Origin: Bugula neritina
Lineage: Eukaryota; Bryozoa; Gymnolaemata; Cheilostomatida; Bugulidae
NCBI GenBank assembly: GCA_964035545.1
Contig: OZ037768.1
Span: 171,501-235,500, forward strand
DNA: 64,000 nucleotides
Reading direction: 5' to 3'
Part shown: in pieces, positions 408 to 63,200 of the stretch
Layout of the letters: each line of letters begins with the position of its first letter
How positions within the stretch are numbered: the first letter of the stretch is position 1
Translations under genes and position numbers: made by a program
Notes under the pieces: model-generated
What the model was told of the DNA's origin: nothing
Databases searched by the model: none
Seen by the model: only the letters and a program-made list of their open reading frames with translations

Positions 408-2380
408 GTTACCCATTTAGACAGTACTGCGAAGGGGACAGTAAGTATACATTGTATATACAGTAAGTATATAATTATTATATATACAGTAAGTACACAT
501 TGTATATACAGTAAGTATACATTGTATACAGTAAGTATATATTATATATACAGTAAGTATATATAATATATACAGTAAGTATATATTATATATACATAAG
601 TATATATTATATATACAGTAAGTATATATTATACATACATAAGTATAATGTATTGTAGAAGTAGGTAGTTGGCGTATTTAATTAGGACGTCTATTTACTC
701 AGCTGTTTCCTCTGAAATTCTAAATCAGTATCCCAGAAGGCCCTTCAGTTAGCCTTGTTTCTCGTTACAGAGTCTCTTGACTTATTGGCAACTATAAATG
801 TGGGCGGAGAGGAAGCTCTGGTGTACAAGGTGCTAAATTCTAGTACCTCGTCACAAATCACCGTCTTCAAGAAGGATTTCACAAGAGTGTCATCTCTCAT
901 AGGACAAGACTTCTTAGGATGTAAGTCTGAAGTGTCCAATACTACTATATAGACGATGAAGTATTGAATTGTGTTTATGTCTGACATCTCCTTTAACATG
1001 TCTTCTGTCTAAGCTAGTCAACTAATTAAATCAAGATCATGTTGATGTTACAGTTCCCCAGTTTCTCGCCTACCAATATGGTAACACTTCGGATAAGATA
1101 ACTCACCAAGGGGTGTTTGATATTCCAAGCTTCTGTAACCCCCCCAAAGCAAAGCCTGCTGCCCCCAGTGCCCCCGCCAGAGTATGCAGCCTGCCGCAGT
1201 TTGAGATGGAGGCTATCGGCGAGATTGGGCAGGTGGTGAACGGACAGCCGATGCAATTCCCTTACGCTTTGAAGTCGTCTTGGGATTACACCAACAAGAT
1301 TGAGGCCACAGTTTCTGAGGCCTTCTATGATGGTCAAGTTTTCAAAACGGCAACAGTGACTGACTGGCGCCAGGTACTGTGTGATTCTGGGGCTTCAAGT
1401 GCATTTCACTTGAGACGCTGTGCTTCCTTTTCTATGAACATATGATTTATGCATCTTGTAATATGTTACTATCATAATAGCATGTGGTTTCTGCATGGTA
1501 AAACATATGCTGGCTGATACACTGTAGGGTAAAGTGTTTGTCATCGATCATATCAAAAGAACTTGCCAGGCGTTAAAGACTCCAGGACCTGATATGATAG
1601 AGTTGTGTTCTGATAATCGTGAGTTGTTATACACTAAACTATACTCATACAAGACATATATTATGCTATAACTTGTTATACACTAAACTATACCCATACA
1701 AGACATATATTATACTATAACTACTACTGCATGATAAACACATGAGTCGTTTATGTTTATAGCGATGCTGAAACTGGTGGCAGAATTCAGTGTGGGTGAC
1801 AAGATGGCCTCCATGTATGAAATGGTCTACGGGAACGTGTCCTCGGTTTCTACTATGTTTAGTGACACTTTTGAGCTGATATCTGGTGTGGCATTGCAAA
1901 CTCTTGCAGGATGTAAGTGAGATCTTGTATAATATACCACGTGACTCATAATATCAGCATGTGACTCATAATATACCATGTGACTCATAATATTACCATA
2001 TTACTCATAATATTATCATGTGACTCATAATATCACCATGTGACTCATAATATACCATGTGACTCATAATATACCATGTGACTCATAATATTACCATATG
2101 ACTCATAATATACCATGTGACTCATAATATTACCACATGACTCATAATATTACCATATGACTCATAATATACCATGTGACTCATAATATTACCATATGAC
2201 TCGTAATATTACCATGTGACTCATAATATCAACACAATGTAGCTGTTAGTATATTACTCTAACCTGATCTACTAACTTATATTTTCAGTCCCTCAAATGG
2301 TTGCTTCCCAGTACGGTAATATGACCAAAGGAATTACTGACAGGAGCGTGTTCAAGATTCCCTCCTATTGCAACCAGTAG
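408..2380 (+). CDS. Modular Cys-containing protein, 3' part of gene (unknown family)
   Basis: I do not recognise this family. Exons: 408-440 (tentative), 771-920, 1054-1373, 1528-1618, 1763-1912 and 2289-2380 (stop TAG 2378-2380). All joins keep one frame and use GT-AG borders. The protein holds two related modules. Exons 771-920 and 1763-1912 are both 150 bp and encode similar helical segments; each is followed by a matching block, YQYGNTSDKITHQGVFDIPS in the first and SQYGNMTKGITDRSVFKIPS in the second, both ending in Cys-Asn. A Pro/Ala-rich linker (PPKAKPAAPSAPAR) joins the modules. The tentative first exon ends in YCEGD, matching LCSDN at the same place in module 2. Spaced cysteines suggest a secreted or extracellular protein, but the N-terminus and any signal peptide lie outside what I can see. 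The gene is 5'-incomplete. Confidence 0.75.
441..655 (+). repeat. Intronic minisatellite starting at a splice donor
   Basis: About 20-bp units containing ACAGTAAGTATA repeat directly after the tentative exon that ends GGGGACA|GTAAGT at 440. Each unit therefore carries a copy of the exon end plus a GTAAGT donor-like motif. Confidence 0.75.
1926..2232 (+). repeat. Intronic minisatellite
   Basis: About 16 copies of an 18-19 bp unit, ACCATGTGACTCATAATAT, in the last intron of the upstream gene. The unit does not include the donor of exon 1763-1912. Confidence 0.9.
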
Positions 2381-2649
2381 TGGATCCAGAACCCCTTCCT
2401 TACACAGCACGTTGGACATCTTCTTTATTCTAGCTACTTATGATTTGACCTCCTTGAGTTACCTAAACTTTTATGTAAACATCTATCTGTAACCAACGAC
2501 TAAGATTTTAAATTTTACTACAGTAACTAATTTGACCTTCACCTTAAAAACTATTGCAGTGTGTAATTTCTTTATTTTGTAGTGTTACTGTAGTTGCTTC
2601 AAGATTCTTTTCTATACTATTCTGATTTCCTATTTACTGCTTTGTCATA

Positions 2650-2655
2650 AATAAA
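2650..2655 (+). terminator. Polyadenylation signal AATAAA
   Basis: AATAAA about 270 bp past the stop codon at 2378-2380. It is the first good poly(A) signal downstream of the gene and precedes the 30-bp minisatellite. Confidence 0.55.
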
Positions 2656-2689
2656 TCAACTGAAATGAAGATGTATTCTGCGTAGTTTC

Positions 2690-6711: not shown

Positions 6712-9700
6712 ATGAGCTCCAAGAATTCAGGTATTTTATAGACTAGTTATAGAGTAGTTATAGACTAGTTATAGACTAGTTATAGAGTAGTTATAGACTA
6801 GTTATAGAGTAGTTATTATAGAGTAGTATTATAGAGTAGATATAGAATAGTTATACAGTAGTTATAGAGTAGTTATATAGAGTAGTTATAGAGTAGTTAT
6901 AGAGTAGTTGTAGAGTAGTTATAGAGTAGTTATATAGAGTAGTATATAGTAGATATAGATCAGTTATAGAGTAGTTATATAGAGTAGTTATAGAGTAGTT
7001 ATAGAGTAGTTATATAGAGTAGTTATATAGAGTAGTTATAGAGTAGTTATAGAGTAGTTATATAGAGTAGTTATAGAGTAGTTATAGAGTAGTTATATAT
7101 AGAGTAGTTATAGAGTAGTTAATATATAGAGAAATGGTAGAATAATGATAAAGGAATATAAACTATTATAATTATACTGCAGGAAGAAAACACAAGCCAG
7201 CCAAATTAGAGAAATTTGCAATGAAATTCAGCTTTATTTTCTCATCAAAGAAAAGTGAGTGAATATTCTCTGGTATTATAGCGAGCTGTCTAACTCTCAC
7301 TGATGTCTAACTCTCACTGATGTCTAACTCTCACTGATGTCTAACTCTCACTGATGTCTAACTCTCACTGATGTCTAACTCTCACTGATGTCTAACTCTC
7401 ACTGATGTCTAACTCTCACTGATGTCTAACTCTCACTGATGTCTAACTCTCACTGATGTCTAACTCTCACTGATGTCTAACTCTCACTGATGTCTAACTC
7501 TCACTGATGTCTAACTCTCACTGATGTCTAACTCTCACTGATGTCTAACTCTCACTGATGTCTAACTCTCACTGATGTCTAACTCTCACTGATGTCTAAC
7601 TCTCACTGATGTCTAACTCTCACTGATGTCTAACTCTCACTGATGTCTAACTCTCACTGATGTCTAACTTTATTGTGTATATTAATCACATCAAACTGAC
7701 ACCCTAGCTCAAGGTTACTTTGCTGTAGAACCTATTTGAGTGTTATTATGGCAATGACAGTTGTTCAGTGAACTCACAACTTCTAAACTGACACCATAAA
7801 ATTAGATATTTCAGTTAAATACCAACTATTGGATAGAATCATCACCCAATAGCACCTGTCTTTCAATACTTCATTACTTATTGATCAGCTTGCCTGAGGA
7901 TGGCTACTCAGTAAGCCCACATCACTGAAATGTAGCTACTAACTGGTGCTTGTATTTCATATCATTGCGTCTTTTTTCAGCTAGAAAAGCTAAAGAGAAA
8001 TCGAAGCCTTCAAACTTGAAGAAAAATGTGCCTTTGTGTAAGTCAAAATTGCTCAATAAGATTTTAACTATAAATAATATTAAAATCATCTGTCTTGTTC
8101 CCACCAGGAAAGGATAGATCTGCATAATTTCATTTTCAGCAATGCACAATAGAAACTGTTAAGTATGTTTATTAATATATAATTTATTGTTGAGAATGAT
8201 ATTTATATTAGTGTTGGTAATATTGTTAGTGCTAATTGCTAATGCTGTAGTATTAGCATTATTGATGGTAAATACAATGCAATAAGAAACCAACTAAGAA
8301 ATTTGGGTAAAATATTGTCGAATTTCTAAAAAAGAGTTTTGAAAAACAGTTGTATGCTATTTTGTTAAATAATGAGTATAAATAACAGTAGGCATGTTCA
8401 TTCACATATTTGTCAGCCAGGGTGTGTGAGTAAAAGTAATATTTAGTATTCTTCATCATATTACAGTTGACAGGTCACACTCTATGTTAGACCTGACTCA
8501 GCACGAGCGAGACTTCTTAGAGGCGGGGCATTCCGAATATAAGGAGAACGACTACTGTAAGTCTAGCCTTAGTACCATGCTACTCTGTGTAGCCTTAGTA
8601 CCATACTACTCTGTGTAGACTTAGTACCATACTACTCTGTGTAGCCTTAGTACCATACTACTCTGTGTAGACTTAGTACCATACTACTCTGTGTAGCCTT
8701 AGTACCATACTACTCTGTGCAGCCTTAGTACCATACTACTCTGTGCAGCCTTAGTACCATACTACTCTGTGTAGCCTTAGTACCATACTACTCTGTGTAG
8801 ACTTAGTACCATACTACTCTGCGTAGACTTAGTACCATACTACTCTGTGTAGCCTTAGTACCATACTACTCTGTGTAGACTTAGTACCATACTACTCTGC
8901 GTAGACTTAGTACCATACTACTCTGTGTAGACTTAGTACCATACTACTCTGTGTAGACTTAGTACCATACTACTCTGTGTAGACTTAATACCATACTACT
9001 CTGTATAGACTTAGTGCCATAAGTTGATATGATATAATTTTAGTTGACACAGTTTCCCTCTGTAACCCAATACTGGAACATGCTGAAATGCCGTCTGCTA
9101 GGTGGAGTAGAGAGGGTAAGTGTCCCCAGCCAAGTGATAGAATGAAAGTTTACATCTTCTCAATATTCCTTATAATAGCTGACAACAGCTACCACAGTTA
9201 TTCCTAGTATAATGACATCATCTCTGACAGGGTGAGCATGCAACTCCAACTTGTGTCTAATGGTTATATTTCTGTGTAAATTCTGGGTGAAGTCTTCTAC
9301 TCTGCTGACTTCTTACAGCTGGCAGCGTGAGTCAGAGCAGCTTAGCAGCAGCGTGTGTGCTGTCAGCCACCAGCTACAACACCTCTGCCTCCCCTCGTAC
9401 TGGGAGCTCCTTCTATACTACTTACTGTAAGTTACATATCAGTATATATTACTTACTGTAAGTTACATATCAGTATATAACACTTACTGTAAGTTACATA
9501 TCAGTATATAACACTTACTGTAAGTTACATATCAGTACATAATACTTACTGTAAGTTACATATCAATATATAATACTTACTGTACATATCAGTATATAAT
9601 ACTTACTATAAGTTACATATCAGTATATAATACTTACTGTAACTAAGTTACATATCAGTATATAATACTTACTGTAAGTTACATATCAGTATATAATACT

Positions 9701-12700
9701 TACTGTATAAGTTACATATCAGTATATAACACTTACTGTACATATAAGTATATACTACTTACTGTAAGTTACATATCATTATATAACATTTACTGTAAGT
9801 TACATATCAGTATATACTACTTACTGTACATATCAGTACATAATACTACAGTATATGCTACTTACTTACAGCCAATACGAGGTCAGACAACCCCCGAAGT
9901 CCTGTCCCTGAGGAGTTTCCTTCAAGGAATGCTGGTAATACGTTAGACTTGTATCTTTATCAGACTGATTTTTACCTTTGTGTTGGAAGGGCTCGTTACA
10001 GTTCAGCCTCACAGTCTACTGCTGTCAATCTATAGTCAACATAAATAAGAGTAGAAATGGTTGCAGGGTTGATAATATGCATACTTGTTATTCTGATTAG
10101 CCCAGCCTGAAGAACTAGAGGAGAGTGGAGGTGAGATGGAGCCCCACAGTCACCCTCCCCAACTGACTGCACTGTGTGAGAAGCCAATGCCTCTTCAAGG
10201 TATATCAATGCTTATGTTTTGCTAAAGTCAATGTATGTTGCTTTTTCCCACTTTTTGGACCCATGTTTTTTAACAACATAATACAAATAATTATACCTAA
10301 TGAATCTTGGCCCCTTTCCTAACAGGCCTGACAACAGGTAGCAAGTACTTGCTGGTGGTCATGTCCAAGTGACAGCTTGTCTCCACTTCTGCAATGACCA
10401 CAACCAACTTGTCTACCTGCATACTGGAAGTTTAGATACTCAGCTTGCTAATCAATGTCTAATAATTTTCTACACTGCGACTGAAATTAGCACTTTTTAA
10501 AACTGATTGAAGCAGTTTCGATATCTTATTCAGAGCTTTCTGGTGAGTGTGACGGTGGGCGCTTACGCCGGGGAAGAATGTTGCCTGCTGCTACACGACA
10601 GCCTGTTGCTACACGACAGCCTGTTGCTACACGACAGCCTGTTGCTACACGACAGCCCTGTATCAACAACCAGTTTTCACAGAACAAAGAGCAGGAGAAA
10701 ATTCCAGCAGACCATAGGAGACAAGAAGAATGTAATAACAATAAAATATACCAAACCCCAAAGAGTGATGATGCATCAGAAGCACACGCGCCTAATGTGA
10801 AGCGAATGGTCGACTCATTCAATAGAGGACCCACACCATTTCAAAGAAGTAGAAGTTCATGGGCCTCAGTGAGTGGCAGAAGACAGAAACTTTCACCTCC
10901 TGTTGAAATGATGCAGAGAGAGGAGCCACCTGTTGAAATGATGCAGATTAAAGAGCCACCTGTTGAAATGATGCAAAAGAAAAAGCCATCTGTTGAAATG
11001 CTGCAGAAGAAAAAACCACCTGGTAAGTCTCCTCCCTCCCCGGCAAAGAAACCATCAGCAATCAGTCAAAATCTTAAGTTTTACAGTTCTCAAATAACTG
11101 AGAGACTGCGAACAGGCCTGCTAGATGAGACTTTGCCAACCACCACAAGTGAACACACTTCAGTCTCAGAATTAGTGAAGACTTTACCACAACGAGAAAA
11201 ACGTTCTCAGCTCACTAGTGCTACAAGACCTAATCAACCAATGACCAGCCAGATAACATCAAGCCGAGCAACAGCAAGTCAACCAATACCCAGGCAGCTA
11301 ATAACCAGCCAACCAATGCCCAAGCAGCTAGCTAACAGCCAACTAACAACTAGGCAACTAGACCAACCAGATACTTACCAGCCAGCCAATGACCAACAAG
11401 AGAACAACTCACCAGCCAACAGCCAGTCAGCTAGCAACCAGCCAACTTACAACCAGCCAGATAACAGTCAGGTGGCTAGAAGTTATAAAACTGACTTAGA
11501 CTCACAAGTCTACATACCAAATAAAACACCGCCGCAGTTTGCAGGTAATGAGCAGTCCGCAGTGAATAAGGAAGAACAATCAAACTCATTCCTGGCCGAT
11601 GAGCTACAGACACCCATTTCAAGTCAAAGTTTAAAAACCAAAGAGGGATCCTCAGAAGACAGAGATGGAGAGAAGCCGCAGCCATCTAAACTTCAGGCTG
11701 ATGTAGAGTCACAAGTATTCGAAGTACACAATCCGCGACAACCAGTTAAACTGAAAAGAAGTTTCAGGCAACATATATGTGACTTGAGTGCTGACCAACT
11801 TGTACTAGGAGCACATGCCTCAAAGGGGGGTGAGTGGAGATACGTTTCTTGAAGAAAAATATATTTCCAAATGCTACGATACAAATCAGTAATACGTCAT
11901 ATTCTCATTGACTTTGTTATCTTTTGTCGCAAAAAATAGGAAAACAAAACAAATAAATAACTATTCTCAGGTCATGATGTTTTGTATTTTCTTCTGTAAA
12001 ACGTAGAATGAATTTTTTAAACTCAAAGTTTTGTATAAATGGTTACTGATAAACTAAAAATAAAATCCAGCATTGTGTTCTTATAGTTCCTGACTCTCCA
12101 AATAACCTTGCAATGCCAGCTAGAATGCCCCTTGTGCAGGAGCCACCACTGGCAGCTATCAGTCAGAAAGTTGAGTCAGTCACCAATAGTGGTGAATCAG
12201 TTACCAATAGTAAGAAGTTAGTCACCAATAGTGGTGAGTCAAGTTAGAAACATACAAATACGCCGTAGACCATATAACTAAAGTAAAGTTGGTTCAATAA
12301 GTCAAAGATGGAACAACAAGCTTTGATTTATTTTAGTTTATATTTCAATTTTAGAACATAGAGCAAAGAGAACTGCCAGTAGAAAACGCTTGAGCGAGGG
12401 CAGCGTTGGGGAAAGAGCTGCCACTACTACAACTATCTCAATGATGTCACTCGCCACACAAACCGAGCAGCAAATGATGGAGTCAGATGAAACTCGCTCT
12501 GAAGCACCATCTCCAGCTGCTGAATTGCGGCTTCAAAAAGAAAATGATGAACTTAAAAAACTTTTAGACGCTGAGAAGAAAAGACACAGTCAGGAAAAAT
12601 TTGAGTGGCAGCAAAATCTAAAGAAAAAAGACGCGCAAATACTCAACTTGAATGAAAAGCTGCACGAGCTTGAGACCAACCCTCCTGAGATGAGGAAGTC

Positions 12701-13830: not shown

Positions 13831-13837
13831 GAAACAT

Positions 13838-15346
<1,509 letters not shown>

Positions 15347-15555: not shown

Positions 15556-15558
<3 letters not shown>

Positions 15559-18733: not shown

Positions 18734-21633
18734 ATGGCGTACCTGCTCAAAGGGAAGATTCTATACTCAACCCTGGGTGGACTAACAATGCTACTGGTGG
18801 TACACTTTTCTCTCAACTCTAATGGGAGCACGTGAGTGTCTTATTATATCCTCTCTTCTATCCCTGAATATCCTCTTTTATACCTCTGAATATCCTCTCT
18901 TATACCCCTGAATATCCTCTCTTATACCCCTGAGTAATATATTTTCATCCTACCACCATTAACACACCTTATAATAAACATTTTTGTGTTGTTGGCAGTT
19001 GGCAATCACAGCTTCTCCTCCATTATGTTGCTGTTACTATGAATAATCAATAAGTTATGTAATATGTGTATCACATATGCTAAGTAGAACTATTATATTT
19101 TTGTAGTTTCATTTGCTAAGCTGTTTTAATTTAAGCTCATCACCATTTTGTTATGCTTAGTTTTCTGCAATATTTAATTCTATCTAGCACGGCATTTTAA
19201 ATAAATGTTTCAATTCTGTAGAAAAAGTGAGACTACAAATTCAGTAGCTAAAGGGGGCGCACTTCAAGGCAGAGATGCTGAGCATGAATCTCAAAATATT
19301 CATAATATTTTGGTAAAAGATCAACAGTCTACTTCCGTGAACACTGCGCAGTTAAATAGCATCCAATCAACTAGTTCCAGGCTCTCCCCAGTCTCCTCCT
19401 CTCTGATTGGTTACTCATTAAGTCACCAGCCAATTGTACGTCCAGAGGAAAGGCTGAGTAGAGATCAGTGTGAAGAGTTACTCAACAGAGAGTTGCTGGA
19501 TGTTAGAGACTACCATATTCAGTTGATAGCAGGTGCCCCTGGCTCTGGCAATGACTGGTGTTTGCTGACTATTAGACTGTTTACCGGTAGGATTCATACA
19601 CCTACTGCACTACATTCTATTATTATAATAACAACAAAATGTGCTTTCATTGTATTTTTACATTTAACAAGTATTTTAAAAAAATTGTTTAGGAATGAAG
19701 ACAACAGGAACGTCTCCAACCAACCTGAAGGCCCGGGACTTTTCTGAACACCGAAAAGTCTACTTCTACTACAAAACCCACTACCCTTTTCAGTCTATGA
19801 ATTTACCAGTTCAGCAATACATTATTTCACACGCGGAGAGATTTGTGTTGACAATAAGAAACCCGCTAGATGCTGGATTTTCTACATATGTTATGTAAGC
19901 AGAGTGTATGTGTAATAGCATGCTCGGCTATCGTGTGTTAGTAGCTCTAGTATTACTAAACTCTATGTAATATTAGTATTACTAAGCTCTCTGTAATATT
20001 AGTATTACTAAACTCTCTGTAATATTAGTATTACTAAACTCTCTGTAATATTAGTATTACTAAACTCTCTGTAATATTAGTATTACTAAACTCTCTGTAA
20101 TATTAGTATCACTAAACTCTCTGTAATATTAGTATTACTAAACTCTCTGTAATATTAGTATTACTAAACTCTCTGTAATATTAGTATTACTAAACTCTCT
20201 GTGCTATGAGTCACCAGAGTTTATTAACTTAGAAACTGATTTGCATACTAGCTGCTGTTAATTCTATATATCTATAGGGTTAACTATTGAATCTTCAGAT
20301 TTTAATTTTCATAGTAATCTGTCAGCCAAGCTAGAATATTGATTTGAAGTTGCAATTTGATTGGACAACAATTGCTGCCAAACATGCACCACTTAGATTA
20401 GCGTTGCAAGCTAGAGGTGTATGTGTATGCTGCTTTATTATCATATTTAGCTTTTCATGACAGCGTAGCATTTCCATGGCAACTTAGAAATGTGTTCAAC
20501 GTTGATGTTGACGGAATGTTTCAGGTCTTCGATACACAAGATGCACTTTGCTAGTCGCAAGAAGTATGCCAACGTGACCACACTCTTTCACATGAACGAC
20601 TTCATAGTTTATGATAGCTCTGGTGAGCCAGCAATAAAAGTAGGTGAGACAAGTCATGAGTAGCTAATTTGTTTGCACGTCGTTATGGTTACCGTGACTT
20701 TTGGTATGTTTGGAACTTTCTCACCCTGAATATGCCGTCAGCTAGTAGCTGTGTCATTACAATCATCAAGATATTACTACTGAACCACTTAATAGAAAGC
20801 ATGAATTTGAATGAAACATTTTACATTGTGTTGTAATAAAGCACCCATGAATATAATATACTATGAGAGAAGTAGAAAGGGATTTGGAGGTGGCTGTTTG
20901 AGCACATCTTTATCAACAAGGGACAGTATTACTCGCAGCTGCTGTTAACGAATTACTGAATGAATTATATTACATATATGTTTTGTACATTAAGGCAAGT
21001 CATTATATATGTTGTAGAGCTCAAGTCATAATATATGTTGTAGAGCTCAAAGAATACTTGGAGCGATTCTTCCGCAACTGGAAATATCATCATGAATTTT
21101 ATCTAACTAAGTACACAGGTCCTTTAAAAGTTGTTCTTTACAGAAACTTAGCTGATGATATCTTTAACTTTAAAGATATTTTAGAATTTTTTGGATACAA
21201 TGTGACTGAGACTATAGAAAGGTGAGTAGTACTAGTGACTATATAACAGTGAGTAGGGCTAGTGGCTATATAACAGTGAGTAGTACTAGTGACTATAGAA
21301 AGGTGAGTAGTACTATAGTGACTATAGAAAGGTGAGTAGTACTAGTGACTATATAACAGTGAGTAGTAGTAGTGACTATAGAACAGTGAGTAACTCTAGT
21401 GACTATATCATAAAGGTGAATACTGTGTGGTTACATATTTCAGGAGACAACGATTCCAATGTGTGCTGGAGAATGATGCCTACACCAAGCAATGGAAGAG
21501 ACCAACAGTGTCTCTGTTAGACAAAGCTAAAGAAATTGTCAGAAAACTTTATAAACTAGAAATTACTTCTGTTATATCTTCAGTAGAGCAAATGTATTAT
21601 TCTAAGTATGGGAAGACGATTGCTATTGTTTAA
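18734..21633 (+). CDS. Membrane sulfotransferase, WSCD-like
   Basis: Six or more exons: 18734-18831, 19222-19586, 19693-19894, 20525-20643, 21044-21221, 21444-21633 (stop TAA); all joins keep frame. The product is about 383 aa. Residues 1-30 have a short basic start and a hydrophobic helix (LYSTLGGLTMLLVVHFSL), fitting a type II Golgi membrane anchor. A Ser/Thr-rich stem follows. The catalytic domain shows AGAPGSGNDW (PAPS 5'-phosphosulfate loop), the KTHYPF block, and FVLTIRNPLDAGFST (3'-phosphate binding). The C-terminal part, VVLYRNLADDIFNF then RFQCVLENDAYTKQWKR, resembles the WSCD sulfotransferase family, but no WSC domain is present. It probably transfers sulfate to a glycan; the substrate is unknown. 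The ATG at 18734 is chosen because the anchor follows directly. Confidence 0.8.
19948..20205 (+). repeat. 26-bp intronic minisatellite, about 10 copies
   Basis: Units of ATTAGTATTACTAAACTCTC plus TGTAAT in the third intron of the sulfotransferase gene. The array does not include the donor. Confidence 0.95.
21207..21420 (+). repeat. Intronic minisatellite carrying splice donors
   Basis: The exon ends GACTATAGAAAG|GTGAGTAGT at 21221. About seven following units read GACTATA(GA/TA)A(AG/CAG)GTGAGTAGTACTAGT, so each repeats the exon end with a GTGAGT donor. Confidence 0.92.
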
Positions 21634-41500: not shown

Positions 41501-44500
41501 GCCTTGTAGAGTAAGTATACATTCCCTCAACACTATACCTTGTAGAGTAAGTATATATTCCCTCAACACCATGTCTTGTAGAGTAAGTATATATTCCCTC
41601 AACACTATACCTTGTAGAGTAAGTATATATTCCCTCAACACTATACCTTGTAGAGTAAGTATATATTCCCTCAACACTATACCTTGTAGAGTAAGTATAT
41701 ATTCCCTCAACACTATGTCTTGTAGAGTAAGTATATATTCCCTCAACACTATGCCTTGTAGAGTAAGTATATATTCCCTCAACACTATGCCTTGTAGAGT
41801 AAGTATATATTCCCTCAACACTATACCTTGTAGAGTAAGTATGTATTCCCTCAACACTATGTCTTGTAGAGTAAGTATACATTCCCTCAACACTATACCT
41901 TGTAGAGTAAGTATATATTCCCTCCACACTATGTCTTGTAGAGTAAGTATATATTCCCTCAACACTATGTCTTGTAGAGTAAGTATATATTCCCTCAACA
42001 CTATGCCTTGTAGAGTAAGTATATATTCCCTCAACACTATACCTTGTAGAGTAAGTATATATTCCCTCAACACTATACCTTGTAGAGTAAGTATACATTC
42101 TCTCAACACTATACCTTGTAGAGTAAGTATATATTCCCTCAACACTATGTCTTGTAGAGTAAGTATATATTCCCTCAACACTATGCCTTGTAGAGTAAGT
42201 ATATATTCCTCAACACTATACCTTGCAGAGTAAGTATATATTCCCTCAACACTATACCTTGTAGAGTAAGTATATATTCCTCAACACTATACCTTGTAGA
42301 GTAAGTATATATTCCCTCAACACTATGTCTTGTAGAGTAAGTATATATTCCCTCAACACTATACCTTGTAGAGTAAGTATATATTCCCTCAACACTATAC
42401 CTTGTAGAGTAAGTATATATTCCCTCAACACTATGTCTTGTAGAGTAAGTATATATTCCCTCAACACTATGTCTTGTAGAGTAAGTATACATTCCCTCAA
42501 CACTATGTCTTGTAGAGTAAGTATATATTCCTCAACACTATACCTTGTAGAGTAAGTATATATTCCCTCAACACTATACCTTGTAGAGTAAGTATATATT
42601 CCCTCAACACTATACCTTGTAGAGTAAGTATATATTCCCTCAACACTATGTCTTGTAGAGTAAGTATATATTCCCTCAACACTATGTCTTGTAGAGTAAG
42701 TATACATTCCCTCAACACTATGTCTTGTAGAGTAAGTATATATTCCTCAACACTATACCTTGTAGAGTAAGTATATATTCCCTCAACACTATACCTTGTA
42801 GAGTAAGTATATATTCCCTCAACACTATGTCTTGTAGAGTAAGTATATATTCCTCAACACTATACCTTGTAGAGTAAGTATATATTCCCTCAACACTATA
42901 CCTTGTAGAGTAAGTATATATTCCCTCCACACTATGTCTTGTAGAGTAAGTATATATTCCCTCAACACTATGTCTTGTAGAGTAAGTATATATTCCCTCA
43001 ACACTATGCCTTGTAGAGTAAGTATATATTCCCTCAACACTATACCTTGTAGAGTAAGTATATATTCCCTCAACACTATACCTTGTAGAGTAAGTATATA
43101 TTCCCTCAACACTATACCTTGTAGAGTAAGTATATATTCCCTCAACACTATGCCTTGTAGAGTAAGTATATATTCCCTCAACACTATACCTTGTAGAGTA
43201 AGTATATATTCCCTCAACACTATACCTTGTAGAGTAAGTATATATTCCCTCAACACTATACCTTGTAGAGTAAGTATATATTCCCTCAACACTATACCTT
43301 GTAGAGTAAGTATATATTCCCTCAACACTATACCTTGTAGAGTAAGTATATATTCCCTCAACACTATACCTTGTAGAGTAAGTATACATTCCCTCAACAC
43401 TATGCCTTGTAGAGTAAGTATATAGTCCCTCAACACTATACCTTGTAGAGTAAGTATATATTCCCTCAACACTATACCTTGTAGAGTAAGTATATATTCC
43501 CTCAACACTATGCCTTGTAGAGTAAGTATACATTCCCTCAACACTATACCTTGTAGAGTAAGTATATATTCCCTCAACACCATGTCTTGTAGAGTAAGTA
43601 TATATTCCCTCAACACTATACCTTGTAGAGTAAGTATATATTCCCTCAACACTATACCTTGTAGAGTAAGTATATATTCCCTCAACACTATACCTTGTAG
43701 AGTAAGTATATATTCCCTCAACACTATACCTTGTAGAGTAAGTATACATTCCCTCAACACTATACCTTGTAGAGTAAGTATATATTCCCTCAACACTATA
43801 CCTTGTAGAGTAAGTATATATTCCCTCAACACTATGTCTTGTAGAGTAAGTATATATTCCCTCAACACTATACCTTGTAGAGTAAGTATATATTCCCTCA
43901 ACACCATGTCTTGTAGAGAAATTGCCTCATGCTGGTTTGTGGAAGTAAAGAGCATCTTGTTCTTGTAGAGAAATAGCTGAAGGGTTGAATCCTGGAAACT
44001 GGGGATGGAAACGTCGCAGAGCTTTGTCATCCCAGAAGAGGAACACAGTGAAGATTAGCGAGGAGAAAGCCAACTCCTACCTGAGTTTGGAGAAGAGAGG
44101 AGACATCTGTTTCTCAGCGCAAGACATCCTAGACGGCATCGATGCCATCTTTTCTGCTCTCATAGACTTGGCTAACAAAGCCATACAAGCTGTACTGAAT
44201 GCCCTGCCAAGTTTCAGCTTACCAGGTCAGCTCTCTACTCCATCACTGTGACTATGAGTCATAGCTATTCCATAGCTATGACTATGAGTCATATCTACTC
44301 CGTCACTGTGACTATGAGTCGTATAGCTACTAATCACAATGCTTCATTTAGGAACCGTAGCGAAGAAATTAAGATAACCCAAGTTCTTTAAATTTTTTAA
44401 AATGTTGGTTGAAATTCTTGCGAGAACATAACTTCTTTTGCTACACTTTTAGTCTAGAACACAGGCTTTTCTTAATTTCTCTCGCATTAATATGGAGCTA

Positions 44501-45381
44501 GATAAAAAGCTTAAAATATGCTATTCAGCTGTTGAACCGTATAGCGTATCGCTATATCATTGAAATGTTGATGCTGTAGGTATGCCCAACTTTTCCAATC
44601 TCTTCAGCTTGAACATCAACTTCAATCTCCCGACAATAGACTTCTCTCTGGATCTACCTCTCTTTGATCTCATCTTCAACTTCAACTTTGGGTGTGCCGT
44701 TGACGTGAAGAACGCCTGTGCGGCAGTATCTGGAGCCGTCAGCTTTGACTGTGGCAATGCCTATGGCAAGAGATCTTTGTAAGCCAACACTCTAAAACTC
44801 GGCTTATTCTTGCAATATTTTTACCGAGTTTAAACTGTTTGCATTTCTCTAAAATCAAACTATAGTCTAATTAGATAAAGCTGAACAATTATCAACTATT
44901 TCCAAATATTCTCTATATTAGACATGCATGGCAGAATGATGGAATATACAGCTTTCTGTTTTAGAATCTCTGAGGCAAGTTTGACCGAACTGGACTTTGC
45001 CAAGAGAAAAATGACAGATGCAGAAAGTAGGTTGCTTTACGAGCCAATTGTTACAGCTGAGTTTTCCTGCAGTTTGGAATCCTTAAGTGATTGTAGCACT
45101 GAAACTACTGCGGGCTAATCCACATTTGTGCTTGATTCTGTAAAGACAGACCTAAACAGACACAACACGTGATCTAAACATCCCCCTCTCTGACTCTATA
45201 TCTCATTGAGTAAACACTTATCAGGGTTTTACTTTTCCCTTCAGATCTGGAGATGGAAGTTGAGAAAAGGAAAGTTGACTCCAAGCACATGACAGAGGCA
45301 GAGGCCCTTGCTGCCATGCAGCACCTGACAGAAGAGCAGCTCCAAAAACTAAGTGAGATGATGCAACAGAAACATGGATAG
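38539..45381 (+). CDS. Secreted helical protein, copy 1 (unknown family)
   Basis: Nine exons: 38539-38543, 38850-39027, 39891-40128, 40568-40741, 41033-41258, 43969-44225, 44580-44778, 44965-45026, 45245-45381 (stop TAG). They sum to 1476 bp, 491 aa, all in frame. The first coding exon is only ATGAG; splicing gives MRVISAVALVSLVGYTLAAY, a clear signal peptide. The mature chain is mostly amphipathic helix with scattered cysteines (FNTCTVKTQSDIDC, TACTNGKNYVNSARNC, IGSKCAAIKAL, RLCIP, DICFSAQDI, NFGCAVDVKNACAAV). A basic KRRR lies near WGWKRRRALSSQKR, a possible cleavage site. The C-terminus is charged (MTEAEALAAMQHLTEEQ). Exon 44580 onward would stop at 44780 if its intron were retained, because the TAA overlaps the donor TT|GTAAGC. 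I know no matching family; function is not assigned. Confidence 0.88.
39680..39872 (+). repeat. About 30-bp intronic minisatellite
   Basis: Units of TAACTGAGTTATCCCCCTGT plus TCTGTACAGA, six to seven copies, ending 20 bp before the acceptor of exon 39891. The copy 2 counterpart (52690-52985) has about ten. Confidence 0.92.
40118..40490 (+). repeat. 26-bp intronic minisatellite carrying splice donors
   Basis: The exon ends TGTAACCAGG|GTAAGTATT at 40128. About 14 units of GTAACCAGGGTAAGTATTAC plus ATGTGT follow, each repeating the last exon bases and a GTAAGT donor. Confidence 0.95.
41250..43917 (+). repeat. 36-bp array of intron-like units, about 74 copies
   Basis: Each unit starts GTAAGTATATATTCCCTCAA, continues CACTATGTC or CACTATACC, and ends TTGTAGA. 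It thus has a perfect donor, a short body, and an acceptor-like CTTGTAG, with a single A between units. The exon before it ends CTAGA|GTAAGT (41258) and the true next exon follows TTCTTGTAG|AGAAAT (43968), so unit and borders match. A few units are 35 bp. All long frames through it are artefacts of the 36-bp period. Confidence 0.97.
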
Positions 45382-49904: not shown

Positions 49905-50172
49905 CACACTACCGAATAATACAAGGGAAGTCACAATACCGAATAATACAAGGGAAGTTACACTACTGAATAATACAAGGGAAGTCACACTACTGAATAA
50001 TACAAGGGAAGTCACACTACCGAATAATACAAGGGAAGTCACATTACTGAATAATACAAGGGAAGTCACACTACCGAATAATACAAGGGAAGTCACATTA
50101 CTGAATAATACAAGGGAAGTCACACTACCGAATAATACAAGGGAAGTCACACTACTGAATAATACAAGGGAA
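49905..50172. repeat. 27-bp minisatellite, about 10 copies
   Basis: Copy 2 counterpart of the 35801-36815 array. Confidence 0.95.
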
Positions 50173-51351: not shown

Positions 51352-51399
<48 letters not shown>

Positions 51400-51567
51400 G
51401 TATTATTAATTTCTCTGAATTAATATTTTTCCAGCTATAGTATAAATATAGTAATTGGATTTGGTGTCATATTTAGAGCTTCTATACGCATGTATGCTGG
51501 TTTTCTAGATCTAGTATTTAAATGAGCTGAATTCGGATATGAATTCAATTCTACTGATACATCAGCC
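50173..51567. other. Upstream region of secreted-protein gene, copy 2
   Basis: Matches 36816-38538 with a deletion near 50770-50830. The 30-bp GACCTGTTGA array lies at 51115-51320. A (TA)n expansion at 51356-51396 is absent from copy 1. No gene recognised. Confidence 0.6.
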
Positions 51568-54500
51568 ATGAGGTACAGGGTATTCTATAATTATATATAA
51601 CATATCATATAGAACTTTATAGAATAGTTTTATATACTTTGTTTTTAAAGTTTTATGTTTCCTAAACATTAAGTTTTTAAATTTTTTTTCTATTCACATG
51701 GTTTCAGTTTTTTATATTGATTTTTTGAATTTTTTTTTGTAGAAAGCAATAAGTACGTGAAATTCAATATATTCGTCAAACAAATATAATAATAATAATA
51801 ATATAATATGATATATTATATATTTATATATTATAATATAATATTGCGTTTAAGATATAATATTATATTAATATATTTACAGGGTAATTTCAGCAGTAGC
51901 TCTTGTCAGTTTGGTTGGGTACACCCTAGCAGCGTACCCAACTCAAACCAACAACCTGTACAATGCATTCAACACTTGCACCGTGAAGACTCAGTCAGAT
52001 ATAGACTGTATAACCACCGTGAGAGACGGTCTGGATAAGATAGCCGACTACATTCAGAAGGTATTGTGGTCTCAGTATATACTCTAACTAATGGGTATTC
52101 TACTGATTTACAATTTCATTTGTAAAGATTTCTACTTGTATAAAGAAGGTGTACCATCTACCTAGCTCACTGAATTTTTTTTTTAATTTAGATTTAAAAA
52201 ATGAAACTTTTAAACGCTTTAATGAGACAAAATTCAGCCTTTCAGGTATAAACAAGGTGCATATAATTTATAATTTAAAATCAGCCTTAAAAAGAAACAT
52301 CAACTTAAATTGTTTTAGTAACGTACAACAATTTCTTTTGTTACAATGAATTTAATTTTTATGTAAAAACATGTTGCTAATAAAAAAACTCCAATTGATG
52401 AATTTCTAAACAGAATTATTCAAATCACTTTCAAGCTATATAGTTCTTATTAAACACTGGAATAAAAGTTACTACTGTAGCATATTATTACAGTATACTG
52501 TAATAATATGCTACAGTATACTGCAATATACTGTAATTTTATACACTGGAAGAGAGTAGAATTATATGAACTGTTGATAAGATGTTATATAATTTGACAG
52601 AATGTGTTATGGGATAGAGTTGTCCTCTCATATTTTATCAAACTTATTTTTGATGCACACATCTTTATATTATACTGAGTGACTAATACAACACAGATAG
52701 CTGAGTTATCCCCCCTACTCTGTACACATAACTGAGTTATCTCCTCTGTTCTGTACAGATAGCTGATTTATCCTCCCTGTTCTGTACATATAACTGGGTT
52801 ATCCCCCCTACTCTGTACATATAGCTGAGTTATCCCCCCTGTTCTGTACATATAACTGGGTTATCCCCCCTGCTCTGTACATATAACTACATTATCCCCC
52901 CTGTTCTGTACAGATAACTGAGTTATCCCCCTGTTCTGTACATATAACTGAGTTATCTCCCCTGTTCTGTACAAGTAACTGAGTTAATTTTTATTATTTT
53001 GTTGGAAGGTGAGAAACCTGAAGACCAACATGGGCAGACTAAACACTGGTCTAGATACCTTCAACGCAGTTGTGGGCATCGCTAAGTACGCCCCAGCAAT
53101 CGGCTCAGCCATCACAGCTCTCAAGTCTACCATAACTGCAATACGGCCCACATTTAACTCCGCCTACGCCAGGGTGAAAACCATTGATGCCAAAATCTAC
53201 CTGTGGAAGAACGACGTGATTAATGGAAAGATTGCCTGTAACCAGGGTAAGTATTGCATGTGCACGTAACCAGGGTAAGTATTACATGTGCACGTAACCA
53301 AGGTAAGTATTACATGTGTACATAACCAGGGTAAGTATTACATGTGTACGTAACCAGGGTAAGTATTACATGTGTACGTAACCAGGGTAAGTATTACATG
53401 TGTACGTAACCAGGGTAAGTATTACATGTGCACGTAACCAAGGTAAGTATTGCATTTGCACGTAACCAAGGTAAGTATTACATGTGTACATAACCAGGGT
53501 AAGTATTACATGTGTAGGTAACCAGGGTAAGTATTACATGTGCACGTGATCAGAGCTGCCGATAGAACAGGCAACTCCTTCACCCTGTAATCATACAAAG
53601 TTAGATATGTTGTGTTGATTATGCTGCAGCCATTTCTCAACTCAACCTACTGAAAACCGCCTGCACCAACGGGAAGAGCTACGTCAACTCGGCTCGTAAC
53701 TGTGTCAACTCGATGGCTGCCGGCAGCGTCAAGACGTCTCTGGGCAACTTCATGGAGTCTATGGGCGGAGCTATGTACACAACAACCAATAGCTTGAATA
53801 CAGGTATACAAATATCACATGTTATATATACATAGTTCTCAAAGACACTTTGTAAAACTAGTTCAAATAATTCAAACAACTTAGCAGCAGCGAAAAGCTA
53901 TAAACATATTTTCAGCCAATACTGTATTTGCCATTTATCTCTGCAGAAAATTAGTGAAATAAGTAATAAAACTGAATTTAAAAAATCAATTTTATCTATA
54001 TTTATATTATTTTTATTAATTGAGAATTTAGTAATGTAATTCATTTGTTTAAAATAAATCTTTAAAATAAACTTTGTCTGTTTTTGCCCCGGCAGCTCTA
54101 GGAAACATCGGCAGCAGTTGTGCAGCTATCAAGGCACTGACAGACATTGCTCTCGGCTGGCCAGACATTGACTTCATTGATGTCTCCATCTCCGGCGTCT
54201 ACGCCTCTCTCCAGCCAATCTTAGACTTCTTTGCCAGTCTTCAAGTTGCTCTTGATGCCAGACTGTGTATTCCCAACCCTCTGGACGCTCTGGAAAACCT
54301 CAGAGAACTGGAGATTCTAGAGTAAGTATATATTCCCTCAACACTATACCTTGTAGAGTAAGTATATATTCCCTCAACACTATACTTTGTAGAGTAAGTA
54401 TATATTCCCTCAACACTATACCTTGTAGAGTAAGTATATATTCCCTCAACACTATGTTTTGTAGAGTAAGTATATATTCCCTCAACACTATACCTTGTAG

Positions 54501-56579
54501 AGTAAGTATATATTCCCTCAACACTATACTTTGTAGAGTAAGTATATATTCCCTCAACACTATACCTTGTAGAGTAAGTATATATTCCCTCAACACTATG
54601 TCTTGTAGAGTAAGTATATATTCCCTCAACACTATACCTTGTAGAGTAAGTATATATTCCCTCAACACTATGTCTTGTAGAGTAAGTATATATTCCCTCA
54701 ACACTATGCCTTGTAGAGTAAGTATATATTCCCTCAACACTGTGCCTTGTAGAGTAAGTATATATTCCCTCAACACTATACCTTGTAGAGTAAGTATATA
54801 TTCCCTCAACACTATGCCTTGTAGAGTAAGTATATATTCCCTCAACACTATGTCTTGTAGAGTAAGTATACATTCCCTCAACACTATGTCTTGTAGAGTA
54901 AGTATATATTCCCTCAACACTATGCCTTGTAGAGTAAGTATATATTCCCTCAACACTATACCTTGTAGAGTAAGTATACATTCCCTCAACACTATACCTT
55001 GTAGAGTAAGTATATATTCCCTCAACACTATGCCTTGTAGAGTAAGTATATATTCCCTCAACACTATGTCTTGTAGAGTAAGTATATATTCCCTCAACAC
55101 TATGTCTTGTAGAGTAAGTATATACTCCCTCAACACTATGTCTTGTAGAGAAATTGCCTCATGCTGGTTTATGGAAGTAAAGAACATCTTGTTCTTGTAG
55201 AGAAATAGCTGAAGGGTTGAATCCTGGAAACTGGGGATGGAAACGTCGCAGAGCTTTGTCATCCCAGAAGAGGAACGCAGTGAAGATTAGCAAGGAGAAA
55301 GCCAACTCCTACTTGTGTTTGGAGAAGAGAGGAGACATCTGTTTCTCAGCGCAAGACATTCTGGACGGCATCGACGCCATCTTTTCTGCTCTCATAGACT
55401 TGGCTAACAAAGCCATACAAGCTGTACTGGATGCCCTGCCAAGTTTCAGTTTACCAGGTCAGCTCTCTACTCCATCACTGTGGCTATGAGTCATATCTAC
55501 TCCGCCACTGTGACTTTGAGTCGTATAGCTACTAATCACAATGCTTCATTTAGGAACCGTAGCGAAGAAATTGAGATAACCCAAGTTCTTTAAATTTTTT
55601 AAAATGTTGGTTGAAATTCTTGCAAGAACATAACTTCTTTTGCTACACTTTTAGTCTAGAACACAGGCTTTTCTCAATTTCTCTCTCATTATGGAGCTAG
55701 ATAAAAAGCTTAAAATATGCTATTCAGCTGTTGAACCGTATAGCGTATCGCTTTATCATTGAAATGTTGATGCTGTAGGTATGCCCAACTTTTCCAATCT
55801 CTTCAGCTTGAACATCAACTTCAATCTCCCGACAATAGACTTCTCTCTGGATCTACCTCTCTTTGATCTCATCTTCAACTTCAACTTTGGGTGTGCCGTT
55901 GACGTGAAGAACGCCTGTGCGGCAGTATCTGGAGCCGTCAGCTTTGACTGTGGCAATGCCTATGGCAAGAGAGCTCTGTAAGCCAACACTCTAAAACTCG
56001 GCTTATTCTTGCAATATTTTACCGAGTTTAAACTGTTTGCATTTCTCTAAAATCAAACTATAGTCTGATTAGATAAAGCTGAACAATTATCAACTATTTC
56101 CAAATGTTCTCCATATTAAACATGCATGGCAGAATGATGGAATATACAACTTTCTGTTTTAGAATCTCTGAGGCAAGTTTGACCGAATTGGACTTTGCCA
56201 AGAGAAAAATGACAGATGCAGAAAGTAGGTTGCTTTACGAGCCAATTGTTACAGCTGAGTTTTCCTGCAGTTTGGAATCCTTAAGTGATTGTAGCACTGA
56301 AACTACTGCGGGCTAATCCACATTTGTACTTGATTCTGTAAAGACAGACCTAAACAAAAACAACTTGTGATCTAAACATCTCCCTCTCTGACTCTATATC
56401 TCATTGAGTAAACACTTATCATGGTTTTACTTTTCCCTTCAGATCTGGAGATGGAAGTTGAGAAAAGGAAAGTTGACTCCAAACACATGACAGAGGCAGA
56501 GGCCCTTGCTGCCATGCAGCACCTGACAGAAGAGCAGCTCCAAAAACTAAGTGAGATGATGCAACAGAAGCACGGATAG
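51568..56579 (+). CDS. Secreted helical protein, copy 2 (unknown family)
   Basis: Nine exons with lengths identical to copy 1: 51568-51572, 51883-52060, 53009-53246, 53630-53803, 54096-54321, 55201-55457, 55779-55977, 56163-56224, 56443-56579 (stop TAG); 491 aa. Same signal peptide. About ten substitutions from copy 1, for example YPWKNDVNNG to YLWKNDVING, GKNY to GKSY, IGSKC to IGSSC, SEEKANSYLS to SKEKANSYLC and AVLNAL to AVLDAL. The reading frame and all splice sites are intact, so both copies look functional. The loss or gain of Cys (YLS/YLC) may affect disulfides. Function unknown. Confidence 0.88.
52690..52985 (+). repeat. About 30-bp intronic minisatellite
   Basis: Copy 2 counterpart of 39680-39872, about ten units, just before the exon at 53009. 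Confidence 0.92.
53236..53550 (+). repeat. 26-bp intronic minisatellite carrying splice donors
   Basis: Copy 2 counterpart of 40118-40490, about 12 units, each with GTAACCAGG|GTAAGT. Confidence 0.95.
54313..55150 (+). repeat. 36-bp array of intron-like units, about 23 copies
   Basis: Copy 2 counterpart of 41250-43917 with the same GTAAGT...CTTGTAGA units; all are full length, and some carry TTTGTAGA. Confidence 0.97.
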
Positions 56580-59992: not shown

Positions 59993-60190
59993 GTGAGTAT
60001 ATACTCTGTAACTGTGTCTGTAACTGTGAGTATATACTCTGTAACTGTGTCTGTAACTGTGAGTATATACTCTGCAACTGTGAGTATATACTCTGTAACT
60101 GTGTCTGTAACTGTGAGTATATACTCTGCAACTGTGAGTATATACTCTGTAACTGTGAGTACAGACTATGTAACTGTGAGTACAGACTAT
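59993..60190. repeat. Minisatellite of GTGAGTATATACTCTGTAAC
   Basis: About eight units with 14 to 32-bp spacing. GTGAGTATATACTC is itself a palindrome-like motif. Just downstream of the CDYL-like stop codon. Confidence 0.85.
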
Positions 60191-60241
60191 GACTGTGACT
60201 AGGAATTAGTACTGACTGTGACTAGGAGTTAGTACTGAGTA

Positions 60242-63200
60242 TCACTGATGCTGCCGCAGAGACGCCTTCATAAGACGCTGACACTCTGCTCCTGGCCATA
60301 GCCGAGTCAGCATAGAGCACTCAGCGTAATTAGCCGCCAGAACTTTTTCCTTGCTCTGAGATTTCAAGAGAGATTTCGTAGCATTGAGCACGTGCGCCGA
60401 GCAGGAAGTGGCCATGTTGACTACTCGCGGGATGACTTCCTGCATCAGACTAGTTGGCCAGAAGACGTGAGCCACCAGTCCGGCCTGATACGCTTCGAGG
60501 GCAGTCAGTACCCGCCCCGCCATCAGCATCTCATTAGCCTGTGAACCATAGAATACTAATAGTATAGATATAGAATACTAATAGTATAGATATAGAATAC
60601 TAATAGTATAGATATAGAGTAGTGATAGTATAGATATAGAGTAGTGATAGTATAGAGATAGAGTAGTATATAGTATAGATATAGAGTAGTATATAGTATA
60701 GAGATAGAGTAGTATATAGTATAGAGATAGAGTAGTATATAGTATAGAGATAGAGTAGTGTATAGTATAGAGATAGAGTAGTATATAGTATAGAGATAGA
60801 GTAGTATATAGGATAGAGATAGAGTAGTATATAGTATAGAGATAGAGTAGTATATAGTATAGAGATAGAGTAGTATATAGTATAGAGATAGAGTAGTATA
60901 TAGTATAGATATAGAGTAGTGATAATATAGATATAGAGTAGTGATAATATAGATATAGAGTAGTATATAATATAGATATAGAGTAGTGATAGTATAGATA
61001 TAGAGTAGTGATAATATAGCTATAGAGTATTGATGTCTAGAGAGACTTACTAATGCTGAGCCAACAACAGTGGGAAGAGAGTGAGTGATGCCGGCCTCCG
61101 GTACTTGACCTAGCCGAGTGTATGGAGTGGAGAACGTAGCCTTGTCACTAGCATACACGACGTCAAAGAGGGGGAGGATGGATACCCCGCACCCTATAGC
61201 TTCACCATTCACCGCAGCAACCAAAGGCTTGGGGAAAGACAGCGTCACTCTAATAAACTCGCTGTCGAAATAGAGAAACCCTTATCATTATATGTAGAGT
61301 AGAGTAATACACAGTAGAGTACATATAGAGTAGAACGCACCACAAGGCATCACACAGAGATCTGGCAGCATATATAGAGTAGAACGCACCACAAGGCATC
61401 ACACAGAGATCTGGCAGCGCACTCCACGTCTCCAGAAGTCAGGTACACCAGATCCATTCCGGAACAGAAGGTACCGTTGTCAGCACCGGTAACCAGGATG
61501 ACTCGAGACGCGTCGTCATGCTTTGCGGCGTCATTGAGTACATCAGTTAGTTCTCGTAGGGCCTGGTGGGAGAGAGAGAGTAATTACCCAGTCAGGACTA
61601 GTAGTTGTTACCTTAACAGTGAGGACTAGTAGTAGTTACCTTAACAGTGAGGACTAGTAGTTACCTTAACAGTGAGGTGAGGACTAGTAGTTACCTTAAC
61701 AGTGAGGACTAGTAGTTACCTTAACAGTGAGGACTAGTAGTAGTTACCTTAACAGTGAGGGCTAGTAGTAGTTACCTTAACAGTGAGGACTAGTAGTTGT
61801 TACCTTAACAGTGAGGGCTAGTAGTTGTTACCTTAACAGTGAGGGCTAGTAGTAGTTACCTTAACAGTGAGGACTAGTAGTTACCTTGGCAGTGAGGACT
61901 AGTAGTAGTTACCTTAACAGTGAGGACTAGTAGTAGTTACCTTAACAGTGAGGACTAGTAGTAGTTACCTTAACAGTGAGGACTAGTAGTTACCTTAACA
62001 GTGAGGGGTAGTAGTTACCTTAACAGTGAGGGGTAGTAGTAGTTACCTTAACAGTGAGGACTAGTAGTAGTTACCTTAACAGTGAAGACTAGTAGTTGTT
62101 ACCTTAACAGTGAGGACGTTTCTACGATTCCCCACTGAGGCGTTGAGTATTATCTGGGTGTAGTGGGTCGTTCTCTTCACTAAGATATCTGTTGTCTGAC
62201 TGGCTGGTGATACCTCCTTATTGCTGGCCCCTAAACACCAGGACATGGAGCTGTATATCTACCCCAGTCTAGCACTAATTGGCATAAACTTGATTTAGAA
62301 AAGTAAGTTATATTCAAATATCAAATTTCAAGAAATATGCAGCAATTGTGGATTTTCAACCATAGAAATGCCCTAAATTCAATAATTCAGACAGAACACA
62401 GATCTTACCATGTCTAGTTTTATCAGACCCTGACTTTCTAGAGTTTTCAAGGGTAGGCTTGCTACTTCTAGAAGCTGATTTTCTAGAGTTTTCAAGGGTA
62501 GGCTTGCTGCGTCTGGAAGTTGATTTCCTAGAGTTTTCAAGAGAAGGTTTGCTGCGTCTGGAAGTTGATTTCCTAGAGTTTTCAAGGGTAGGTTTGCTGC
62601 GCCTGGAAGTTAACTGTTTGCTACGCCCGGAGGTTAATTTCCTTGAACTCACAAGTTTAGATTTTTTACGCTTGGAAACTGATTTTTTTGCAACTTCTCG
62701 AACTGGTTTGCTGTGACTAGAGGTGACATAGTTGTTTAAATGAGATACTTTTGTAGGCCCCTGAGAAGCTGTTAGGTTGAGAGAACCAGCAGATGAGCTA
62801 CGCGGGTTAGGATTGTCACCATAACAATTGTCAAGATGAGTTGACGTATTAGATGTGCTAAAAGGTGAACCCTGAGGAGAGGTTCCACTCAGAGAAGACC
62901 TGAGGTGTCTATTATAAGGTTCCTGTGTAACACCCTGCGGTTGGATGTGTGAGGTGTTAGCTTTAGACTCTGCATGTGAAATATTCACATTAGTGTTTAC
63001 TGCTGGAATTCTAACAACTGAAAATATTAATATTCATTTAGAAACTTGTATATACAACTATTGATAGGCACACCAGCTTATATTCAACTCATATTCACCT
63101 ACTCATCAAAACACTAATACTCACCTAATTCAGCAGGTGCGTGCCTCAGTCTGTTAATACCCGGTTTTGATGCCAAGGGTCGCTCAACATTTTTTGCAGA

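Follow-up and report, generated by a model that had tools for sequence, protein, structure and literature searches.

Tandem repeats that carry the edge of an exon into the neighboring intron have been described under separate names in amphioxus and chicken. In amphioxus, mirages consist of intron-exon boundaries duplicated in the manner of minisatellites. Described for Adh3 and for the globin genes BflGb6 and BflGb9, they are considered possibly general in cephalochordates, reportedly leave regular splicing undisturbed and have been proposed as a route to new introns (PMC3087553). In chicken, sequence stuttering denotes a massive intronic repeat expansion on the dot chromosomes, with exon edges copied in 236 introns of 115 genes, over 90% of them within one base of the border (PMC12954441). 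In human duplicated genes, tandem repeats at exon-intron boundaries are described as having modified 27 introns in segmental duplications, with RNA support (PMC2812944). Here we analyze comparable arrays in the bryozoan Bugula neritina, in a window of 64,000 nucleotides (the whole stretch of DNA under study) that corresponds to positions 171501-235500 of chromosome 4 (contig 4) in the assembly tzBugNeri2.1, which totals 215.8 Mb, and in further stretches of the same genome. The border-copying arrays of Bugula are real and recurrent, and they add a new case to those reported for chicken and amphioxus; an earlier note on the window, made from the sequence, had presented the pattern as lacking a known precedent, a claim that falls with these two systems, which show the same anatomy (PMC3087553, PMC12954441).

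Like the mirages, the Bugula repeats span the exon-intron boundary, and many of their units contain the splice signal; the mirages, however, are described at individual loci of a chordate and have units that measure 10-72 bp in Adh3 and about 150-160 bp in the globins (PMC3087553), whereas the donor-spanning arrays of Bugula recur in many genes and reach 74 copies. The likeness to chicken stuttering, as far as the latter is described, lies in private expansions confined between exons, a subset of which copies the exon edge together with a donor or acceptor, in what may be a concentration in one part of the genome and in apparently fast length change (PMC12954441). The dot chromosomes are described as GC-rich, with exon parts of 20-187 bp and a median of 4 copies (PMC12954441), in contrast to 35% GC in our sample, exon parts of about 2-26 bp, copy numbers that often reach ten or more and, in the sample, a greater richness near chromosome ends. 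The human case is similar in its ~30-bp minisatellites at boundaries and its altered introns in recent paralogs; arrays that fill whole introns are not described in the accessible part of that report (PMC2812944). Finally, the duplicated sequence contains splice signals as in the Rogers model of intron gain, the described cases of which are new introns (PMC4974935, PMC2395259), whereas the Bugula introns seem to grow.

No report of border-copying arrays in any bryozoan was found in the openly licensed papers searched, including the accessible text of the Bugula genome note (PMC11480708) and of the Flustra paper. The present observations suggest that intronic minisatellites of this type also occur on a large scale in an invertebrate distant from both named cases. 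An intron with many donors is a natural setting in which to ask how the splicing machinery chooses among them. The Bugula assembly is at chromosome scale, comes with an annotation of 20,264 genes and is complemented by a second haplotype that has been deposited (GCA_964035465.1; PMC11480708), so that rate, polymorphism and donor choice become testable when the public data are combined.

Border-copying arrays in the window and on chromosome 1

Arrays were detected with Tandem Repeats Finder (TRF), which returned 114 rows in the window, with arrays of period at least 9 covering 30% of it. Genes were predicted with a self-trained hidden-Markov model, for which the training set consisted of the window and 25 stretches of 10 kb; its splice-site profiles were trained without array-borne sites, and two transposon-rich stretches (L002 and L017) were excluded from the coding training. 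A second version, the penalized model, places a penalty on array bases. The exon ends are mostly predictions, and splice usage is judged from reading frames.

Judged by the TRF start and the reading across the border, the repeat unit includes exon-end bases together with the donor in seven introns. Four of these belong to two copies of a recently duplicated gene on the plus strand: a 28-bp array of 12.9 copies (40120..40480) and its paralogous counterpart of 11.1 copies (53238..53547) each carry 9 exon bases and the donor into introns 40129-40567 and 53247-53629, respectively, and a 36-bp array of 74.1 copies (41255..43918) and its counterpart of 23.1 copies (54318..55150) each carry 4 exon bases (TAGA in the former) and the donor into introns 41259-43968 and 54322-55200. 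On the same strand, a 31-bp array of 13.5 copies (9414..9828) shares 13 exon bases and the donor with the exon end at 9426 and occupies most of intron 9427-9871, and a 27-bp array of ~7 copies (21210..21407) takes 12 exon bases and the donor GTGAGT into intron 21222-21443. On the minus strand, a 28-bp array of 19.4 copies (61589..62117) contains the 15 exon bases and the donor GTAAC at 62103 and occupies intron 61563-62102 except for the last 26 bp.

The ten array sites listed in the earlier note are all occupied by arrays at the positions given there; exon-end copying holds at these seven, fails at 8556 and 33443 and is unconfirmed at 440. The plus-strand 26-bp array of 17.6 copies at 8564..9021 starts 7 bp into intron 8557-9043, downstream of the exon end at 8556, and the border is absent from its unit. 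On the minus strand, the 25-bp array of 12.9 copies at 33125..33442 begins at the first intron base beside an exon end at 33443 that is present in one of two gene models, and only 7 of the 14 junction bases match the array unit. A 22-bp plus-strand array of ~9.5 copies near the window edge (438..647; unit ACA/GTAAGT) has 3 bases (ACA) in common with a presumed, unconfirmed exon end at 440. Thus, the claim of at least seven introns in five genes and both orientations stands for the introns, the predicted genes and the two strands; however, the seven introns represent only five independent events because the sites at 40128/53246 and at 41258/54321 are the two halves of the recent gene duplication.

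The array-free splice profiles placed the exon ends at 8556, 9426, 21221, 40128, 41258, 53246, 54321 and 62103 alike, and put the end at 33443 at 33410 instead. Under the penalized model, the ends at 8556, 21221, 40128, 41258, 53246 and 54321 were retained, the one at 33443 was gained, and those at 9426 and 62103 were shifted outside the array, to 9396 and 62118. These two shifts, and the predicted nature of the ends in general, are what favors the idea of wrongly placed exon ends, with arrays that simply lie near exons, an explanation that we regard as extremely improbable given the agreement with homologous proteins. A stretch on contig 4 at 1.0 Mb, 0.8 Mb from the window (L020), contains an SMC2 gene with its best protein match, 75% identical, in SMC2 of the bryozoan Watersipora subatra. 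All 15 tested junctions of this gene are gapless within 8 residues against Watersipora, Mytilus and Nematostella, and the comparison with the solved chain 9f5w shows a single one-residue gap over 792 residues. The arrays within these introns leave the exons intact, the protein being gapless at each tested junction, and an array that TRF reports with at least two copies (in some cases just two or three) is present in 13 of the 15 homology-checked introns. Two of the SMC2 arrays copy a border, one across a donor (4223, 13 exon bases; among the gapless junctions) and one across an acceptor (6273, 6 exon bases). In the window, the CDYL/ECI2-like crotonase gene (60242..62258, minus strand) is gapless against PDB 2gtr at its junction 62103/61562, which is the donor with the 15-base copy. 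Hence, at the level of sequence comparison, misplacement is already contradicted for the homology-checked genes.

The pattern recurs on chromosome 1. In the first 2.6-3.1 Mb of contig 1, we compared the donor words AGGTAAGT and AGGTGAGT with the control words TGAATGGA, AGTAGTGA and TTTGCAGG, taking the first 100 matches listed for each word and counting the clusters of TGAATGGA and TTTGCAGG by eye. Twelve clusters were fetched (seven found with AGGTAAGT, three with AGGTGAGT and two with AGTAGTGA), that is, 10 of 15 donor-word clusters, with five two-site clusters left out, and 2 of 3 control-word clusters. In seven of the twelve (L027, L028, L029, L031, L032, L035 and L036), the array begins inside a predicted exon end, of which 2 to 26 bases are copied. 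An eighth exon-end copier is probably L037, in which the array starts 15 bases ahead of the first donor copy; its 30-bp unit leaves the frame open, and the predicted exon runs on as far as the last copy. In L030 (on the opposite strand), L038 and L039, the array begins no more than 2 bp from a predicted donor and takes along a single exon base at most, and L026 is the only array that does not start at a donor. The share of border-copying arrays in this set is biased because 10 of the 12 were found through donor words, a bias from which the two control-word arrays are free. In L039 (contig 1, 2135900-2137800), intron 832-1549 is filled end to end by ~17 copies of a 42-bp unit that has the form of a whole mini-intron (GT...TTGCAG, with GT coming next).

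Donors, acceptors and chance placement

We hold it reasonably probable that intron stretches are amplified in place, with border copying as the visible edge of this process, tolerated at donors, and not a process aimed at them. Short intron stretches (with units of mostly 10-60 bp) would be duplicated in tandem and amplified in place, in our sample chiefly near chromosome ends; growth of introns as private minisatellites is shown for the sampled stretches. A duplication that happens to overlap the 5' splice site would carry the exon end and the donor into the intron, and the border copies would be harmless because, as the reading frames suggest, the exon-adjacent first donor is the one used, which leaves the later copies within the intron. 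Tentative counts point to fewer large arrays across the 3' splice site, perhaps because the mRNA would take up copies if there were extra acceptors past the branch point.

This reading is supported by the placement of arrays within introns. In 10 of the 59 intronic arrays retained after curation, the 5' edge lies within 2 bp of the donor or past it, whereas uniform placement predicts 7.6±2.4, a non-significant difference. The set was obtained from 67 array-intron pairs by dropping 12 (split artifacts inside arrays, paralog duplicates, and coding or doubtful arrays) and adding four rows by hand after curation; the dropped pairs include rows that run past the acceptor (27495-28938, 10932-11006 and L013 1757-2438) as well as rows that run past the donor. 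A special over-representation of borders above the general placement of arrays in introns is therefore not supported. In our reading, arrays are common within introns and the donor fails to stop them, which makes it a permissive edge and not a proven target.

Several results weigh against this view, some because they point to an excess at donors and others because the predicted scarcity at acceptors is thin. As to donors, 15 of 121 loci of the donor words are multi-copy versus 3 of 280 loci of the control words among the matches listed (p=2.8e-6; one donor-word locus was counted twice, and the corrected 15 of 120 among these matches gives p=2.5e-6), and both fetched control-word arrays, too, begin at a predicted donor. 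At 15 of 293 donors (5.1%), the 16-mer junction word opens a repeat as its first copy, compared with 314 of 11,444 intron-interior positions (2.7%; p=0.028), counts that include paralog pairs and split artifacts and in which the interior positions are not independent. As to acceptors, the 5' edges are overall no nearer to the donor than the 3' edges to the acceptor (32 of 59, p=0.60), and depletion at acceptors is not seen with junction words, last copies being found at 10 of 293 acceptors and at 239 of 11,444 interior positions (p=0.14); at acceptors, these words mostly mark a single additional copy. True overlap involves 7 donors and 1 acceptor, a thin asymmetry (p=0.07), and the difference between the two ends stems from the window (7 of 23 arrays at donors versus 0 at acceptors), with 3 versus 2 of 36 in the other stretches.

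The donor-side results would be expected if arrays started preferentially at the 5' splice site, with breaks during transcription or R-loops at exon ends, or slippage in GTAAGT words, among the conceivable causes; we consider such a preference possible, if rather unlikely. Besides the word and junction counts, it is favored by 10 of the 12 fetched arrays starting in or within 2 bp of a predicted donor, the control-word arrays included, with L037 starting at an unpredicted first donor copy, and by the genome-wide number of GTAAGT pairs 6 bases apart, 1052+559 compared with 86+86 for the reversed pattern, a count in which some long runs weigh heavily. However, the same number of fetched arrays, 10 of 12, had been chosen by donor words, the 10 donor-edge arrays of the curated set fall within the range of uniform placement, and with the conservative gene models of the penalized version the junction-word difference shrinks to 12 of 287 (4.2%) versus 354 of 11,353 (3.1%; p=0.30). 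The three chance tests (junction words, donor words and placement) thus differ in the degree of excess, and their baselines differ as well, the word test being set against all sequence and the placement test against intron space. The contention of the earlier note that the arrays lie at splice sites far more often than chance would put them there is accordingly borne out in one respect, as donor words exceed control words in arrays, and not in the other, as random placement of arrays in introns can account for the donor count. We rate as unlikely the broader proposition that exon ends are preferred birth sites of minisatellites, through a transcription- or splicing-linked duplication common to mirages and stuttering that sets intron length across chromosome compartments; if it were true, intron length in whole chromosome compartments would be set by a general, still unnamed mutational mechanism.

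Returning to in-place amplification and its expected asymmetry, only 2 of the 59 curated arrays extend to the acceptor with their 3' edge, compared with the 10 at the donor (p=0.039), and before curation 15 of 67 pairs ran past the donor and 6 of 67 past the acceptor. Taken together with the counts above, an asymmetry between donor and acceptor for large arrays is suggested, not established. An acceptor-side case in the window is a 26-bp duplication of 2.1 copies (20996..21050, plus strand), which extends 7 bases beyond the acceptor at 21043. Separately, downstream of the 36-bp arrays in both paralogs (43919-43968 and 55151-55200), the acceptor with the first exon bases is seemingly present twice, ~52 bp apart.

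The probable working donor and the growth of introns

The reading frames of 17 donor-spanning arrays bear on which donor copy is used; eight of these arrays lie in the window and the grid stretches, eight were reached through the word searches and one is in L033. In 14 of the 17, a stop occurs in every open frame no more than 40 nt beyond the first donor; the exceptions are the array at 440, with a stop in one of two frames, and those in L033 and L037, which stay open beyond 150 nt. Splicing from a downstream donor would in most cases cut the protein short or change its frame, so, provided that the genes are functional, the first donor should do the work, and it is probably the one used. The suggestion of the earlier note that the copies are tolerated because each brings its own usable donor is thus probably wrong: use of the first donor alone suffices.

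We regard as highly improbable the alternative that the internal donors work, in recursive or alternative splicing or in U1 binding, and are maintained by selection. In its favor, GT is intact in 69 of 69 copies after 41258 in an ungapped count, and across 13 independent arrays the donor columns have fewer distinct variants (p=0.027); against it, besides the early stops, 5 of these 13 arrays were picked for intact donor words and the other 8 give p=0.14, the mutated fraction yields p=0.27 for those 8 and 0.12 for all 13, and after 9426 and 62103 the donor columns are more variable than the rest. Strong conservation of internal donors, as it appeared in the ungapped alignment of copies, was dropped when a gapped wrap-around alignment, which keeps the copies with indels, gave no support for it in the arrays that had not been picked by words. 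Selection on internal donors is not claimed because of the value of p=0.14 from this gapped alignment in the eight arrays. Similarly, donors in donor-spanning arrays seemed stronger (p=0.001), but 8 of the 17 came from word searches, and the other nine give p=0.60.

Arrays enlarge introns. In the array-rich stretches, 47 of 128 predicted introns contain at least 60 bp of array and have a median length of 540 bp, versus 208 bp for the 81 array-free introns; in the other stretches, 9 of 183 introns do so. The earlier note saw border duplication as a common route of intron growth: border-spanning duplication is indeed recurrent and the arrays do lengthen introns; an excess at the borders themselves is not supported. 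Decayed repeats in array-free introns show a small excess over shuffles, alike in introns and intergenic DNA.

The same introns could have been created, not enlarged, by tandem duplication of AGGT-bearing sequence, as in Rogers-type gain. For this argue the introns after 9426 and 62103, which are nearly all array, the mini-intron unit of L039, and, in array-rich stretches, a non-array remainder of array introns that is shorter than array-free introns (median 128 versus 208 bp, p=0.008). The latter difference is absent in array-poor stretches (379 versus 322 bp, p=0.90), the listed donor-spanning arrays stop short of a non-repeated 3' part of 14 to 445 bp, and exon ends in AG at donor-spanning arrays are no better as acceptors than other AG donors (10 versus 105, p=0.93), so that we consider creation very unlikely.

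Paralogs, chromosome ends and other elements

The duplicated gene also speaks for the amplification of introns in place. The gene finder predicts copy 1 with 8 exons at 38861..45381 and copy 2, with the same arrays in other copy numbers, at 51883..56579, both on the plus strand; their coding sequences are identical at 1428 of 1460 positions (97.8%). Even so close a pair differs in array size, 74.1 versus 23.1 copies of the 36-bp unit and 12.9 versus 11.1 of the 28-bp unit; copy numbers diverge fast between these paralogs. The tandem gene duplication, with its minisatellites, spans 35620-45381 and 49905-56579, and an upstream 27-bp array has 37.7 copies in one half and 9.9 in the other.

Array content also appears to vary with chromosomal position in the sample: the median is 17% in the 7 stretches within 2 Mb of contig ends, two of which were chosen after the trend had been suspected, and 0% in the other 20 stretches (p=0.008). 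The rank correlation between array content and distance from the end is -0.38 (p=0.048) and becomes -0.54 (p=0.005) once the satellite stretch L021 is removed; L023 and L021 are array-rich stretches in the chromosome interior. The entire 10 kb of L021 (contig 2, 19.0 Mb) is a single tandem satellite, possibly centromeric. The word (TTAGGG)x4 has zero matches in the whole assembly, and telomeres may be missing from it or be of another type.

A Pfam scan of five gene models gave matches below the curated cut-off, one weak match in one model and three such in another, and none in the other three. An open frame at 10491-11852 contains several minisatellites within its coding sequence, for example, RQPVAT repeats. 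The frames at 13762-17934, in both orientations and beside long AT repeats, resemble a Penelope-like element with a GIY-YIG-type end. On the minus strand, positions 22395-26456 contain a long open frame of a Ty3/Gypsy-type retrotransposon; a protein encoded on an ENA contig matches it with 99% identity over 89%.

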